Virus record (IMG/VR): IMGVR_UViG_3300021959_000075
Coordinates: 1-47,197 of that record
Source of the DNA: a virus
Length of the DNA: 47,197 nucleotides
Strand: one strand, 5' to 3'
Positions 37,380 to 44,134 of the stretch are shown here, one piece after another (position 1 is the stretch's first letter; each line of letters starts with the position of its first letter). The notes under the pieces were generated by a model that saw only the letters and a program-made list of their open reading frames with translations, was not told the origin of the DNA and made no database searches. A program made the translations under genes and the position numbers.

Positions 37380-37967
37380 ATGGCAAGTTTATTTGATACA
37401 CTACAAGCAGGAGCTCAGAGAGCTGGAGTAACTGCACGTACAAAAGAATCTCAAAAATGGTTTCAAAAGAACGTAAAGAATCTTCAAGTATCTCGTGCAA
37501 GCTTACTTAAAGACGACGCTTTAGAGAGAACAAGTAGAAATATACGTGGGAATATGTACATGTACTTCTACGATCCAAAACATAAAGCAACTCTTCCTTA
37601 TTACGATAGATTTCCCTTAACGATCATGATCGATCCAGCTCCTAACGGATTCTACGGTTTAAACTTACACTACTTAAATTATAACGTAAGAGCAGCGTTT
37701 CTTGATGAGCTTATGGCATTAGGACCAGCAAAAGCAAAAGAAAATAGTCGAATTACAAAATTAAGATATAGTGTAATAAGTGGAGTTAAAAAATATAAAG
37801 AATTTAAACCATGCTTTAAGCATTATTTAGGTAAGCATGTAGTATCTCAATTCGCAAGAGTACCAATGACTGATTGGGAGATCGCTATATTTTTACCAAT
37901 AGAACAATTTAAAAAGAAAAGTAAGACTGCAATTTGGCAGGAAAGTCTTAAAATCGCGAGAAACTAA
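37380..37967 (+). CDS. Conserved virion-module protein of unknown function
   Basis: A 195-residue basic protein. Features include the central NIRGNMYMYFYDPKHKATL, PYYDRFPLTIMIDPAPNGFY and GLNLHYLNYNVRAAFLDEL, a pattern I recognise from marine T4-like phages without a firm function. T4 places gp2 next to gp4, but I cannot see gp2 similarity, so that name is not used. No membrane helix or catalytic motif is evident. A TATAAATA box (37367-37374) ends only five bases before the ATG, and there is no ribosome binding site, so its late transcript should be leaderless. The stop overlaps the next start (TAATG). Confidence 0.8.
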   Translation: MASLFDTLQAGAQRAGVTARTKESQKWFQKNVKNLQVSRASLLKDDALERTSRNIRGNMYMYFYDPKHKATLPYYDRFPLTIMIDPAPNGFYGLNLHYLNYNVRAAFLDELMALGPAKAKENSRITKLRYSVISGVKKYKEFKPCFKHYLGKHVVSQFARVPMTDWEIAIFLPIEQFKKKSKTAIWQESLKIARN

Positions 37968-38605
37968 TGGCAACAATAGAAGATTTAAAAGCAACTATAG
38001 CAAAAAAAGGTGGATTGGCTCGCTCTAATAGATTTAACGTTATCTTTACTCCGCCTACTCAATCTTTATTAAATTTAGATCCTCAACAGATTATAAGTTC
38101 AGCTATATCTGGTAATTTTAGCGCAAGAAACTTAATAAATGATCCAAGAGATATATCAATGTTATGCACATCAGTTGTCATACCAGGCAAACAGATAGCT
38201 ACTATAGATTACCAGGCACAAAAACAAACAATAAAGATACCGTATGGCGAATTACACGATGATGTAACATGTACGTTTCTTTTAACTAATGATTATTATA
38301 TGAAAACTGTATTAGATTCTTGGATAGGATCTGTAGTCGATATGGACACATACAAAGTAGCATATAAAAAAGACATTACGACTGATGTAATAATACAGCA
38401 GTTGGATGAGCAAAATACGCCAATATATGGTGTAAAACTTGAGGGAGCATTTCCTACCACTGTTTCTGATATTGAATTATCTAACGAGAATGAAAATACA
38501 GTTCAAACAGTAAATGTGAGCTTTAGTTATGATAAGGCTACTCCGGAAGGTCCGGTAAGTAGTACAGGTAGCGCATTAAGAAGTGCGTTATCTATTTTTG
38601 GATAA
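37967..38605 (+). CDS. Tail-tube-fold protein, gp54/gp19-like
   Basis: A 212-residue protein with the tube fold of T4 gp19 and gp54: ARSNRFNVIFTPP at the N-terminus, SVVIPGKQIATIDYQ, ELHDDVTCTFLLTNDYYM, VLDSWIGSVVD and the closing GAFPTTVSDIELSNENEN, VNVSFSYDKA. gp19 is 163 residues. The longer loop after residue 30 and the C-terminal extension (GSALRSALSIFG) are more like the baseplate tube initiator gp54. The position among baseplate/hub genes, away from any sheath gene in this window, also favours gp54, but a second tube protein cannot be excluded. It is translated with the preceding gene through a one-base overlap. Confidence 0.75.
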   Translation: MATIEDLKATIAKKGGLARSNRFNVIFTPPTQSLLNLDPQQIISSAISGNFSARNLINDPRDISMLCTSVVIPGKQIATIDYQAQKQTIKIPYGELHDDVTCTFLLTNDYYMKTVLDSWIGSVVDMDTYKVAYKKDITTDVIIQQLDEQNTPIYGVKLEGAFPTTVSDIELSNENENTVQTVNVSFSYDKATPEGPVSSTGSALRSALSIFG

Positions 38606-38623
38606 TATAATAGGAGAAATATT

Positions 38624-39325
38624 ATGGCTTTACCACAGCTAAACAGTGCTAGGTATGAGACAACGATTCCTTCCTTAGGTAAGACTATATCATATAGACC
38701 TTACCTTGTAAAAGAGGAAAAGATTCTTATGTTGGCATTGGAATCTCAAGATCAAAAGATGATCATGAGAGCAATTAAAGATGTTATTGAACTATGTACG
38801 TTTGATGACATTAATGTAAACAAATTAGCAGTATTTGATATTGAATGTTTGTTTTTAGCACTAAGATCTAAATCCGTTGGTGAAAATATGGATTTAAAAA
38901 TTAAGTGCAGTGAGTGTGAAGGATTAGTTGATGTTTTAATTAACGTTGATGAGATAGTTCCACCACAAGTAAACACTGATAATGTAGTCATGTTGACTGA
39001 AACAGTTGGTGTTACACTAAGGTACCCTTCGTTTGAAATGGTTTCAAACATGGGAGATGATATAGACACAGTTGATGGAGCATTTAAAATGATCGCAGAC
39101 TGTATCGATACTATCTTTGACGATGATGCAGTACATGATGCATCTAACGTAACTGAAAAAGAAATGAATGACTTTTTGGAGAATTTAAATAGTGATCAGT
39201 TTAAAAAGATGTCTACATATTTTGAAGATATGCCGGCATTAAAACATGATTTACACTATGATTGTCCAACATGTAATAAGGCAAATCATATGGAGTTAAA
39301 AGGCTTACAAAGTTTTTTTACATAG
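38624..39325 (+). CDS. 26: Baseplate hub protein gp26-like with four-Cys zinc motif (zero-frame product)
   Basis: A 233-residue protein resembling the T4 gp26 baseplate family (T4 gp26 is 208). Conserved features: MALPQLNSARYETTIPSLGK, SYRPYLVKEEKILMLALES, then Cys95-x2-Cys98 (KCSEC) and Cys214-x2-Cys217 (YDCPTCNK), a zinc-ribbon-like arrangement. The last codons read AGT TTT TTT ACA TAG, so the frame ends in a run of seven T that is an ideal -1 slip site. AGGAG precedes the start at 38624. In T4, gp26 acts in hub assembly. The layout two genes before a tape-measure candidate is that of lambda G/GT-type tail assembly chaperones. Confidence 0.85.
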   Translation: MALPQLNSARYETTIPSLGKTISYRPYLVKEEKILMLALESQDQKMIMRAIKDVIELCTFDDINVNKLAVFDIECLFLALRSKSVGENMDLKIKCSECEGLVDVLINVDEIVPPQVNTDNVVMLTETVGVTLRYPSFEMVSNMGDDIDTVDGAFKMIADCIDTIFDDDAVHDASNVTEKEMNDFLENLNSDQFKKMSTYFEDMPALKHDLHYDCPTCNKANHMELKGLQSFFT

Positions 39326-39507
39326 GCCTCTCGCATGAGAGTTTAGTCAATCACTATAAGACTAATTTTGCAATGATGCAACACCATAATTATAGTTTGA
39401 CTGAACTTGATAATATGATACCGTGGGAGAGGGAGATTTATATATCACTCTTACAAGAGTATATTAAAGAAGAGAATGAAAGAATTAAAAATGAAAATAG
39501 GAGATAA
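38624..39507 (+). CDS. gp26-gp51-like fusion made by predicted -1 ribosomal frameshift
   Basis: Slipping back one base at TTTTTTT (39313-39319) continues the gp26-like protein as FFYIGLSHESLVNHYKTNFA, MMQHHNYSLTELDNMIPWER, EIYISLLQEYIKEENERIK, ending at TAA 39505-39507: 232 + 62 residues. The tail resembles the hub-assembly protein called gp51 in marine T4-like phages. It has no start codon before its conserved first residues; the first in-frame ATG, 39373, would remove them. A perfect 5-bp hairpin (39328-39341) follows the slip site after an 8-base spacer. These are standard -1 frameshift signals; that the frameshift occurs is inference. Confidence 0.72.
39313..39341 (+). promoter_or_regulatory. 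Predicted -1 frameshift site: slippery heptamer plus hairpin
   Basis: Seven T in the zero-frame phase T TTT TTT (39313-39319), an 8-base spacer, then CTCTC-GCAT-GAGAG (39328-39341). A purine-rich AAAAGG lies about 10 bases upstream and could act as an internal stimulatory Shine-Dalgarno-like element. The zero-frame stop TAG is at 39323-39325, inside the spacer. Confidence 0.72.
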
Positions 39508-39509
39508 TA

Positions 39510-39884
39510 ATGGCTGAAAATACAGATAACAGCAGAAACGAAGTCGAGATTGACTTAGATAAGTATATGGCAATGATCGAAAAGCTCGATGAGCAAGAAG
39601 ATCAAATTAAAGAAATGAAAGATGAAGCGATTCGTGCTAAGAATCAGCTCTCACCACCTAAACATAAGTTTATGGACTTATTTCTAGATGATAACATTCT
39701 CAATGAGAAAGCAATCATTGGATTTATATCCTTTGGACTTATGGTAGTCTTTGGAATGTGTGATTTAGTCACAGCATTTATGGGACAAGATTTACTTATA
39801 TCAGACACAATTTATACATCATTTGTTGTAGTAACACTTGGCGCATTCGGCATCAGCGAAGCTGGTAAAGCATTCGGTAAATAA
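39510..39884 (+). CDS. Two-helix membrane protein before the tape-measure candidate
   Basis: A 124-residue protein. Residues 10-50 form an acidic coiled coil (EIDLDKYMAMIEKLDEQEDQ, IKEMKDEAIRAKNQL). Two hydrophobic helices follow (IIGFISFGLMVVFGMCDLV and TIYTSFVVVTLGAFGISEAG), ending GKAFGK. A coiled coil plus helical hairpin would fit a holin-like protein or a membrane-contacting tail component; neither is shown. Its ribosome site AGGAG overlaps the end of the predicted frameshift product, which links expression of the two. It lies 10 bases before the tape-measure candidate. Confidence 0.8.
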   Translation: MAENTDNSRNEVEIDLDKYMAMIEKLDEQEDQIKEMKDEAIRAKNQLSPPKHKFMDLFLDDNILNEKAIIGFISFGLMVVFGMCDLVTAFMGQDLLISDTIYTSFVVVTLGAFGISEAGKAFGK

Positions 39885-39894
39885 GGAATAAAAA

Positions 39895-41586
39895 ATGGCA
39901 GAGGAAAAGAAAACAAAGAAACCATTGGCTGAAAAGTCTGGTTTCGAAATTCTAACAGATACACTTAAAGAGCAAGCTGAAGTCAGTAAAGCAACAAAGG
40001 ACTCTGCCCAATTACAAGCTCAAATGGCTATGGTCATGGCCGATAAAAGTCATAACCTACAAGGCGATTCATTAAAAGCAATGCAAGACTTGGCTGATCA
40101 GCTAGCTGGCAATAAATTTGATGATATTGAAGCTCAAAAAGAAGCTAATAAAAGAGCTGAAGAGACTTTAAAGCTACTTGGAGAGATATCTGAAAACACA
40201 GAGAAATCTGGCGATAAGCTTGAAGGTCCTGGTGAAGTTGCAGCTGGAATTGTAGGTGGTATAGTAATAGCTATAGGAGCTGTTTTACAAGGTTTTATAC
40301 TTGGTATTGCAGATGCTATAACGCTCTTTGTAAAAGGATTAGGTCTTGCTTTAAAGAAGCTTGTTCCTAAATTTGTTAAAACTGCATTTACAAATAGTAT
40401 AACTAAACCTCTCGCTGAATTCTTTAAACGGTTTAAAGCATCATTTACAATGGGCACAAAAGGTCTTAAAACATTTAAGGCTGGTATTCTAATGTCTACA
40501 GCCAATTTCTTTGGTAGAGTTACTAAAGCATTTACTCTTAAAAAGAATATCTTTATGAATGCTACTAAAGGAATAAGAGGTAGCATTACTGCTATGTCTT
40601 CGAAAGTCGGTGGATTTTTTAAAACTATTGGAAGTGTATTTGGTAAAGGTGTTGCTTTTATAACAGGAGCTTTTGCAGACGCTGGTAAAGCTTTTAGCGA
40701 TATAGGTAAACAATTTGGACTTGTTAGCGATACAGCAAAGAGTACTGCAAAAGGCGCTAAAAGCGCAGGTGGAGTACTTAAAAGTTTAGGTAGTTTCTTT
40801 AAGACTGTATTTACAGCATTCCAAGGAGTTGGTCGAGTACTTGGTAGATTATTCTTGCCTCTTACTATACTTCTTACTGCTGTTGATGCAATCAAAGGAT
40901 CGATAGACGGGTTTACTAAGCAAGAAGGTGGGTTTTTCACTAAGCTATTTGCTGGAGTCATCGGTGGTCTTAAAGGAGCAGTTGTAGGACTTATTGGTAT
41001 ACCACTTGACTTATTAAAATCAGCTGTTGGTTTTATAGCAGGTAAACTAGGATTTGATGGATTTAAAGAAACGCTTGCATCATTTAGCATTGCAGGACTT
41101 ATTGGTAGTATGTTTGATAAAATTAAAAATACAGTTCTAGGTTTCTTTAATGCTATGCTTGACGAAACAGGATCGTTTGACTTTGGTAGAATGATTAAAG
41201 TCTTAGTTGGTACAATATTCAATACATTAACAGCTCCAATCCGATTATTATTAGAAGGCTTGGCAAAATTAGCAGAAAAAATACCATTTAAAGGCGATGA
41301 TATTGCTGCAGGTATTAGGTCATTTAAAGGTAAACTTACAATGGATACTGGTGTAGATGAAGCAATTCAGAATGTAGAAAATAAAAATGCAGCATCTCAA
41401 AAAGGAGAAAACCTTAACAAACAATCAACTGAATTAAAAGCTGAAGAAAGAGCTGCTGGTCCAACACCAGCTGAAATAGTAAACGCAGTTGCAACAACAA
41501 ACAATTCAACTAAAATGGGCGATAATTATGTTATCACTACGCCGCCAGCTGTTGATTCTATATCCACTGGTCTAACTAACAGATAA
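39895..41586 (+). CDS. Candidate tail tape-measure protein
   Basis: A 563-residue protein. The N-terminal 110 residues are charged and helical (ILTDTLKEQAEVSKATKDSA, IEAQKEANKRAEETLKLLGE). Then come hydrophobic Gly/Ala-rich stretches at about 114-150 (AAGIVGGIVIAIGAVLQGFI), 310-335 and 347-385, separated by basic helical repeats rich in Phe, Gly and Lys. This is the layout of tape-measure proteins. T4 gp29 has 590 residues, so the length would suit a tail of T4-like size. Position after the predicted frameshift gene supports this. The C-terminus is low-complexity and polar. Sequence similarity to gp29 is not evident by eye. A convergent terminator follows. Confidence 0.72.
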   Translation: MAEEKKTKKPLAEKSGFEILTDTLKEQAEVSKATKDSAQLQAQMAMVMADKSHNLQGDSLKAMQDLADQLAGNKFDDIEAQKEANKRAEETLKLLGEISENTEKSGDKLEGPGEVAAGIVGGIVIAIGAVLQGFILGIADAITLFVKGLGLALKKLVPKFVKTAFTNSITKPLAEFFKRFKASFTMGTKGLKTFKAGILMSTANFFGRVTKAFTLKKNIFMNATKGIRGSITAMSSKVGGFFKTIGSVFGKGVAFITGAFADAGKAFSDIGKQFGLVSDTAKSTAKGAKSAGGVLKSLGSFFKTVFTAFQGVGRVLGRLFLPLTILLTAVDAIKGSIDGFTKQEGGFFTKLFAGVIGGLKGAVVGLIGIPLDLLKSAVGFIAGKLGFDGFKETLASFSIAGLIGSMFDKIKNTVLGFFNAMLDETGSFDFGRMIKVLVGTIFNTLTAPIRLLLEGLAKLAEKIPFKGDDIAAGIRSFKGKLTMDTGVDEAIQNVENKNAASQKGENLNKQSTELKAEERAAGPTPAEIVNAVATTNNSTKMGDNYVITTPPAVDSISTGLTNR

Positions 41587-43381: not shown

Positions 43382-43623
43382 ACAGGTAGTTTATTAGTTC
43401 TCTTAACTTTAATCAAGTTTAAGCTTGCTGCTTCTTCTTGGATCTTTTGTTTAAGCGAATCAGTTAAAAGTTTCTTCATGTTCTTATAGTCCATCTTTCT
43501 CTCTTCAACTACGTATGCTGCTGCGTCTATGTATGACATATTGTTATGAGCAACTAAATGCTCGACCGCAGCAGAGAATCTCTTCTTTGTCATGATCTTT
43601 TCGTCTATAGGATTATCCGACAA
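43378..43623 (-). CDS. 33: Late transcription coactivator gp33
   Basis: About 81 residues. Recognised by SYIDAAAYVVEERKMDYKNM and SLKQKIQEEAASLNLIK, matching the layout of T4 gp33, which ends EKIQxEAxxxNL. gp33 links the sliding clamp to host RNA polymerase so that late promoters (TATAAATA) are used. Start choice: a TTG at 43623 has AAGGAG six bases upstream and is preferred. ATG 43638 would place that site inside the gene, and ATG 43593 has only a weak site. The start overlaps the peroxiredoxin stop by 11 bases. The matching sigma-like gp55 is not in this window. Confidence 0.82.
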   Translation of the reverse strand: MSDNPIDEKIMTKKRFSAAVEHLVAHNNMSYIDAAAYVVEERKMDYKNMKKLLTDSLKQKIQEEAASLNLIKVKRTNKLPV

Positions 43624-44134
43624 AATCTTCTCCTTCATTCCAAGCACAGCCTGTAAGACCGCCTGCTTGTAAACCTTTTAAAGTTCTTAATACTTCTTGT
43701 GCATTTCTGCCTGTGTCTAATGCATTTACTGATACATGTTGAATAACTCTATTTTTATCAAATATAAATGTCGCTCTATAAGCTACACCGTTATCATGAT
43801 CAACAATACCTAACTCATCTGCAAGTTGTAATCCACAGTCAGCTGCAAGTATATGATCGATTTCTCCAATCATATGGTTGTCTTGTTTCCAAGCCAGTTT
43901 GCAATACTCGTTATCTCCACTAATACCTACAACATTTGCATGCTCTGTAAGTATATCCATTCCTGCAATTTCTGTTGGACAGATAAACGTAAAGTCTTTT
44001 GGATAGAAGTATACGACTGACCAATCTTTTTTAAGTGGTTGGAATGTCTCATGTATATCCACTTTCACAAATTCATTTTCTTTATTAACTCCCTGCAGTG
44101 AAAAGGCTGGGAAATAATCTCCTACTGTTAACAT
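43613..44134 (-). CDS. Peroxiredoxin (typical 2-Cys, AhpC/TSA type)
   Basis: A 173-residue peroxiredoxin that reduces peroxides using a thiol. The active site PKDFTFICPTE gives Pro45, Thr49 and peroxidatic Cys52, with Arg120 (YRATFIFD) completing the family tetrad. Cys163 in GLTGCAWNEGEDF is the likely resolving cysteine, in an AhpC-like C-terminus. SGDNEYCKLAW matches the conserved helix after the active site. No signal peptide, so cytoplasmic. AGGAG stands seven bases before the ATG. It is co-transcribed with gp33, gp59 and the gene upstream, a place that suggests expression during replication. It is a host-type metabolic gene, probably acquired; the partner reductase is not in the window and would have to be supplied by the host. 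Confidence 0.93.
   Translation of the reverse strand: MLTVGDYFPAFSLQGVNKENEFVKVDIHETFQPLKKDWSVVYFYPKDFTFICPTEIAGMDILTEHANVVGISGDNEYCKLAWKQDNHMIGEIDHILAADCGLQLADELGIVDHDNGVAYRATFIFDKNRVIQHVSVNALDTGRNAQEVLRTLKGLQAGGLTGCAWNEGEDFVG

Follow-up and report, generated by a model that had tools for sequence, protein, structure and literature searches.

In bacteriophage lambda, two tail assembly chaperones, gpG and gpGT, cover the tape measure protein and bring in the tube subunit, and the virion contains neither of them (PMC5009743). The frameshift that joins G to T is described in the same 2016 review as widely conserved "except T4". A 2010 review (PMC3004832) counts the T4 proteins gp26 and gp51 among the chaperones of hub assembly; it reports gp51 to be essential, absent from the particle and of unknown function. 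An assignment of tail assembly chaperone (TAC) genes in T4-like phages was published by Vladimirov, Gautam and Davidson (2022, Virology 566:9-15); it is taken here as cited in PMC10885494 and PMC12846349. The PRFect paper (PMC10885494) cites it for the statement that some T4-like phages do without a frameshift and encode a short chaperone and a longer, fused one in two genes. PMC12846349 refers to it when stating that short-form genes of T4-like phages carry poly-T frameshift signals. As these papers describe it, the assignment concerns genes akin to those considered below: in part of the T4-like phages the short-form gene bears a poly-T slip site, and in other phages a short gene is accompanied by a long fused one. 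Since both papers credit it to the 2022 study, the core proposal examined here has very likely been published already. A literature search for a paper tying genes 26 and 51 by name to frameshifting found none.

The locus described here lies in a stretch of 47,197 nucleotides from a marine T4-like phage (IMG/VR virus record IMGVR_UViG_3300021959_000075), called the window below. Its features are collected in Table 1. The gp26-like protein gives a full-length match to the Pfam family T4_baseplate PF12322 (E=5e-64, positions 2-218 of 219) and also matches phrog_150 (E=7e-68). It carries a zinc-ribbon-like CPTC close to the C-terminus, and the mean pLDDT of its AlphaFold2 model is 87. The 3' end of the gene reads CAA AGT TTT TTT ACA TAG, and for this reason the run of seven T falls in the X XXY YYZ phase, exactly as the earlier note had read it. 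This is the single gp26-family gene in the window. The same holds in the frameshift-type phages generally, where the gp26 search found 652 places in 652 records, that is, one per record. At some distance from this locus, on the minus strand, the window has an AhpC/TSA-family peroxiredoxin gene (43613-44134, PF00578 1e-20) that adjoins a gp33-like late transcription coactivator; it is possibly a host-derived metabolic gene.

Table 1. Features of the gp26/gp51-like locus and its neighbours, in window coordinates
Feature	Position	Strand	Evidence
Tail-tube-like / baseplate tube initiator-like gene, just upstream	37967..38605	+	phrog_45 9e-41; Phage_T4_gp19 1e-6
gp26-like ORF, putative short form (TAC-N-like), 233 aa	38624..39325	+	PF12322, phrog_150, AlphaFold2
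Purine-rich Shine-Dalgarno-like element, AAAGG, 9 nt 5' of the heptamer	39299..39303	+	counts in 223 junctions
Slippery heptamer T TTT TTT, X XXY YYZ phase	39313..39319	+	sequence; 230/236 junctions
gp51-like tail in the -1 frame, 62 codons + stop; C-terminal part of the predicted long form (294 aa)	39319..39507	+	phrog_634, pN/pS
0-frame TAG stop, one sense codon past the heptamer	39323..39325	+	sequence
Tentative 5' arm of long-range pairing, CCTCTC	39327..39332	+	synonymous constraint, covariation
Hairpin CTCTC-GCAT-GAGAG, 5 bp, 8-nt spacing	39328..39341	+	present in window; 2/95 window-like relatives
Tentative 3' arm, GAGAGG, codons of conserved W-E-R-E	39427..39432	+	covariation
124-aa protein just downstream, weak matches only	39510..39884	+	ORF
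563-aa candidate tape measure, by position alone	39895..41586	+	same place as annotated Cr30 and HTVC008M tape measures

The proposed reading is that one start serves two proteins. Most ribosomes would end at the TAG at 39323 and release the gp26-like short form. On a minority of ribosomes, the tandem tRNA-Phe paired with T TTT TTT would slip back by one base, and these ribosomes would read 62 more codons to give the fusion ..GLQSFF-YIGLSHESL.. Together, the short form (TAC-N) and the long form (TAC-NC) would then serve as chaperones of tail assembly, in the manner of lambda gpG and gpGT. The part common to both forms would bind the tape measure protein and the extension would recruit tube or hub subunits, and neither form should be present in the virion. 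We consider this reading as a whole to be highly probable. The genomic comparisons presented below give high confidence that the frameshift is real, and the chaperone role of the two forms is probable. We infer the fusion product itself, the chaperone role and the efficiency of the shift.

A set of 236 distinct gp26 3' junctions was collected by scanning IMG/VR and named phages. An in-phase T TTT TT[T/C/G] is found near the gp26 stop in 230 of them, as T TTT TTT (137), T TTT TTC (92) or T TTT TTG (1). A single sense codon separates the heptamer from the stop in 173 of 180 junctions. The junctions bearing the heptamer include those of Kyanoviridae cyanophages, pelagiphages and KVP40-type vibriophages, and also of phages of Sinorhizobium, Agrobacterium, Caulobacter, Pseudomonas, Stenotrophomonas and Variovorax. 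As a control, other Phe-Phe pairs in the same genes were inspected, and only 9 of 183 are slippery. The base preceding the two Phe codons at the junction is T in 223 of 223 cases, compared with T-ending codon use in the same genes of 0.54 for Ser, 0.76 for Asn and 0.85 for Asp. The rarity of other slippery pairs and this invariant T, set against the value for Ser, indicate that the heptamer is not a mere by-product of coding for two phenylalanines. The earlier note had predicted a -1 programmed frameshift joining the gp26-like part to a gp51-like part, and had proposed an alignment of the junction across T4-like phages. The junctions compared show that the heptamer is conserved, together with its phase and the -1 offset, which supports the prediction.

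The translation of the -1 frame begins with YIGLSHESL, ends with ENRR and is closed by a stop at 39505-39507. Profile searches aligned it with positions 60-117 of phrog_634, annotated "baseplate hub assembly catalyst" (E=1e-27), and with the far C-terminal end of phrog_150, at 237-281 of 282 (E=8e-7). In the window-like group the pN/pS value of the tail frame is 0.148, versus 1.3 and 2.8 in the other two frames; judged by these ratios, the tail frame is under purifying selection. The first ATG, GTG or TTG of this frame in the window occurs 50 nt past the 0-frame stop, within the conserved part. The claim of an open frame of 62 codons with no start before the conserved residues is therefore correct in both respects.

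Genes 26 and 51 of T4, both read here from the T4 relative RB32, offer a natural control for this gene. The gp51 protein (249 aa) matches phrog_150 over its full length, positions 13-280 of 282 (E=9e-88), while the match of gp26 (208 aa) stops at position 235. In hhalign, the profile of the predicted fusion aligned with gp51 over residues 12-285 without a gap at the junction (E=2e-18 for a single comparison). The multiple alignment across the junction places FFYIGLSHESLVNHYKTNF over FKLLVNPDEIFTFYQINH. The T4-type gp26 and the T4-type gp51 form one supported group each, with long branches. The T4-type gp26 genes have neither the heptamer nor the tail, and their E-F-F is written GAG TTC TTT or GAA TTC TTT; the loss of the slip site thus goes together with the absence of the tail. 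On this colinearity T4 gp26 corresponds to the short form, and the long form is represented, in one frame, by T4 gp51. The T4 proteins belong to the same family as the product of the window's gene. However, T4 has two divergent genes without a slip site, whereas the window has one gene and a predicted frameshift. A separate observation concerns T4 gp28 (L091:3797-4330), encoded just before the tape measure gp29. Its profile resembles that of T4-type gp26 weakly (hhalign probability 77, against 0.5 with the fusion family), and gp26 matches phrog_1140 at 9e-4; T4 gp28 might be a third divergent member.

As with lambda gpG and gpGT, a short protein is paired with a predicted long form extended in the -1 frame, the slip site lying where the first gene ends and ahead of the region with the candidate tape measure. 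The differences are that sequence similarity is undetectable, that the window uses T TTT TTT and not the lambda heptamer, and that the common part is larger and contains the zinc-ribbon-like CPTC. The order of the genes in the window, tube-like, gp26/51, small ORF and tape-measure position, resembles V-G/GT-H of lambda by analogy. The order gp26, gp51, small ORF and annotated tape measure in HTVC008M and Cr30 is similar. The lambda architecture that had been claimed for this locus is supported by the colinearity of T4 gp51 with the fusion; the position that had been claimed fits the gene order, in which the tape measure is a candidate by position. Profile and sequence comparison of the 563-aa downstream protein gave no clear tape measure match. 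The HTVC008M protein two genes past gp51 (L392:1445-3508) matches several tape-measure families (8e-12); its positional counterpart in the window does not.

Comparison with known chaperones by fold gave values that are not significant. Foldseek with the gp26-like AlphaFold2 model returned the HK97 TAC 2ob9 (E=1.1, prob 0.60) and 3fgx (E=2.2, prob 0.63), neither of which is a significant match, and the search with the gp51 model gave no match to solved chaperones. A PDB sequence search with the gp26 profile found nothing, and the Pfam family Phage_TAC_3 matched the gp26-like protein at E=0.33, weaker than the cut-off and not recurrent in 40 family members. These results count in favour of an alternative in which the frameshift is real but its products are hub-specific assembly factors, and not tape-measure chaperones of the lambda kind; the T4 literature also has gp26 and gp51 as hub assembly chaperones (PMC3004832). 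However, this alternative is opposed by the existence of short and long forms, by the order tube, gp26/51 and tape-measure position, and by the 2022 assignment of T4-like TAC genes in the form cited by others (PMC10885494, PMC12846349), and we regard it as unlikely. We prefer the reading of the two forms as tail assembly chaperones. The suggestion of the earlier note that the gp26/gp51 pair of marine T4-like phages is a chaperone of the G/GT type is supported by the conserved slip site and by T4 gp51 colinearity; as a new idea it does not stand, in view of the 2022 assignment as cited.

The gp51-like tail could also be made as a separate small protein by reinitiation past the gp26 stop. Many GenBank records annotate the tail as a separate gene, some with the start placed at an ATG near the junction. 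An ATG occurs within 18 nt past the heptamer in 58 of 223 junctions, and some of these overlap the stop (TAATG, TGATG), so that reinitiation is possible at those junctions. In 160 of the 223, however, there is no ATG, GTG or TTG up to +18 nt, and the annotated starts of HTVC008M and Melnitz lie at least 50 nt downstream, where they remove conserved residues. The tail is moreover fused in frame in T4 gp51. An own start for the gp51-like part, which the earlier note had named as evidence against frameshifting, is therefore present in part of the family, yet the heptamer is retained even at the junctions with an ATG. Reinitiation as the general explanation is very unlikely, and a -1 frameshift remains the preferred origin of the tail.

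Public annotations of this region are uneven. In hundreds of records the C-terminal domain is either entered as a protein of its own, the "baseplate hub assembly catalyst", frequently with the wrong start, or left out. The annotated start is an internal Met past the conserved residues in HTVC008M, Melnitz and Mosig, and the tail is missing from S-CAM1 and Syn30. The named records with faults in the tail annotation are L085, L095, L096, L102 and L104.

The sequence around the slip site was examined for stimulatory signals. In 223 junctions the element 9-10 nt before the heptamer is AGAGG in 70, GAGGG in 69, AAAGG in 32 and AAGGG in 21; the AAAGG of the window is a weak Shine-Dalgarno-like match, and most relatives have GAGGG or AGAGG. 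In the TTTTTTC group, the ratio of the Glu codons GAG to GAA is 62 : 6 at codon -5, which lies in this element, versus 18 : 45 at codon -11. The mean folding energy dips at 0 to +5 nt past the heptamer. RNAalifold returned no consensus structure over the heterogeneous groups, and synonymous shuffles were therefore used as the reference for folding. With them the TTTTTTC group (n=83) has a mean z of -2.17 and the TTTTTTT group (n=49) one of -0.92; the window itself has -1.59. These values point to a downstream stem-loop that is clear in the TTTTTTC lineages and weak in the window and its TTTTTTT group. P-SSM2 has a long stem 5-6 nt downstream of its heptamer, while a mutual-information search in the window's group gave no convincing local stem. 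This layout, with a Shine-Dalgarno-like element about 10 nt upstream, a tandem slippery heptamer and, in the TTTTTTC lineages, a downstream stem-loop, resembles that of the E. coli dnaX signal. It differs in having a heptamer of U rather than A, and in the weakness of the window's own stem.

The perfect hairpin at an 8-base spacing, to which the earlier note had drawn attention, is present in the window. However, it is found in only 2 of 95 aligned close relatives, and for this reason it was rejected as a conserved stimulator and is considered a local feature. The Leu codon CTC/CTT at 39328-39330 is under strong synonymous constraint in the window's group (chi2/df 69). It covaries with a Glu codon GAG/GAA located 99 nt away (40/32/0/21, Fisher p=1.4e-6, uncorrected for relatedness), and the direction of the covariation exactly fits a predicted CCTYTC:GARAGG pairing. 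Since the p value ignores relatedness, we treat this long-range pairing as a lead.

The fixed phase and the layout of these signals also bear on slippage of RNA polymerase on the T run, which would give mixed mRNAs, some of them coding for the fusion. Such slippage can occur on long runs, and the window has seven Ts. However, the run is TTTTTTC, with six Ts only, at 92 of the 230 junctions. A fixed T TTT TTY phase is needless for a slipping polymerase, and this phase, the dnaX-like spacing of GAGG and the downstream stem-loop are signals for the ribosome. We judge polymerase slippage to be less likely still than reinitiation, and ribosomal frameshifting is retained. The in-frame version in T4-type phages (gp51) might also suggest that a single gene has decayed, or has been mis-sequenced, into two frames. 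Conservation already refutes this: 230 distinct junctions from many studies are split at this one position, and the tail is under purifying selection. This explanation can be set aside.

Three junctions from Ackermannviridae are without the canonical heptamer and have A ATT TTC or G ATT TTC in its place. The gp26 genes of these phages end in ATT TTC ATT TAA (L087:2290-2456, L090:2295-2480, L393:1695-1890). Two of the three, ECML-4 and Klebsiella phage May, have a tail without an ATG, GTG or TTG start, and Dickeya phage Ds16CZ has TAATG at the junction. The lack of both the heptamer and such a start in ECML-4 and May implies either a non-canonical slip or an ATT start. A tentative and rather doubtful proposal can be made that the window's lineage is stimulated not by the local hairpin but by the long-range pairing of CCUYUC, just past the stop, with GARAGG about 95 nt further on, and that the Ackermannviridae use a non-canonical (A/G)AUUUUC slip in the same gene. 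If this is true, the same chaperone pair would be produced by at least three decoding arrangements, with T4 swapping frameshifting for two genes.

The gene in the window appears to be a well-supported addition to the frameshift chaperones of T4-like phages that have apparently been described already. What the present work may add is a comparison of this size, the resemblance of the layout to dnaX, the finding that the window's hairpin is not conserved, a tentative long-range pairing and the exceptional Ackermannviridae. Outside the T4 group, most T4-like phages appear to keep the frameshift, while T4 would hold the two forms as separate genes. This would explain why T4 stands as the exception in the statement on conservation (PMC5009743), and why gp51 has been recorded as essential with no function assigned (PMC3004832). 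The two-form picture agrees with the 2022 assignment as cited, and KVP40 and the cyanophages would offer a clear test system.
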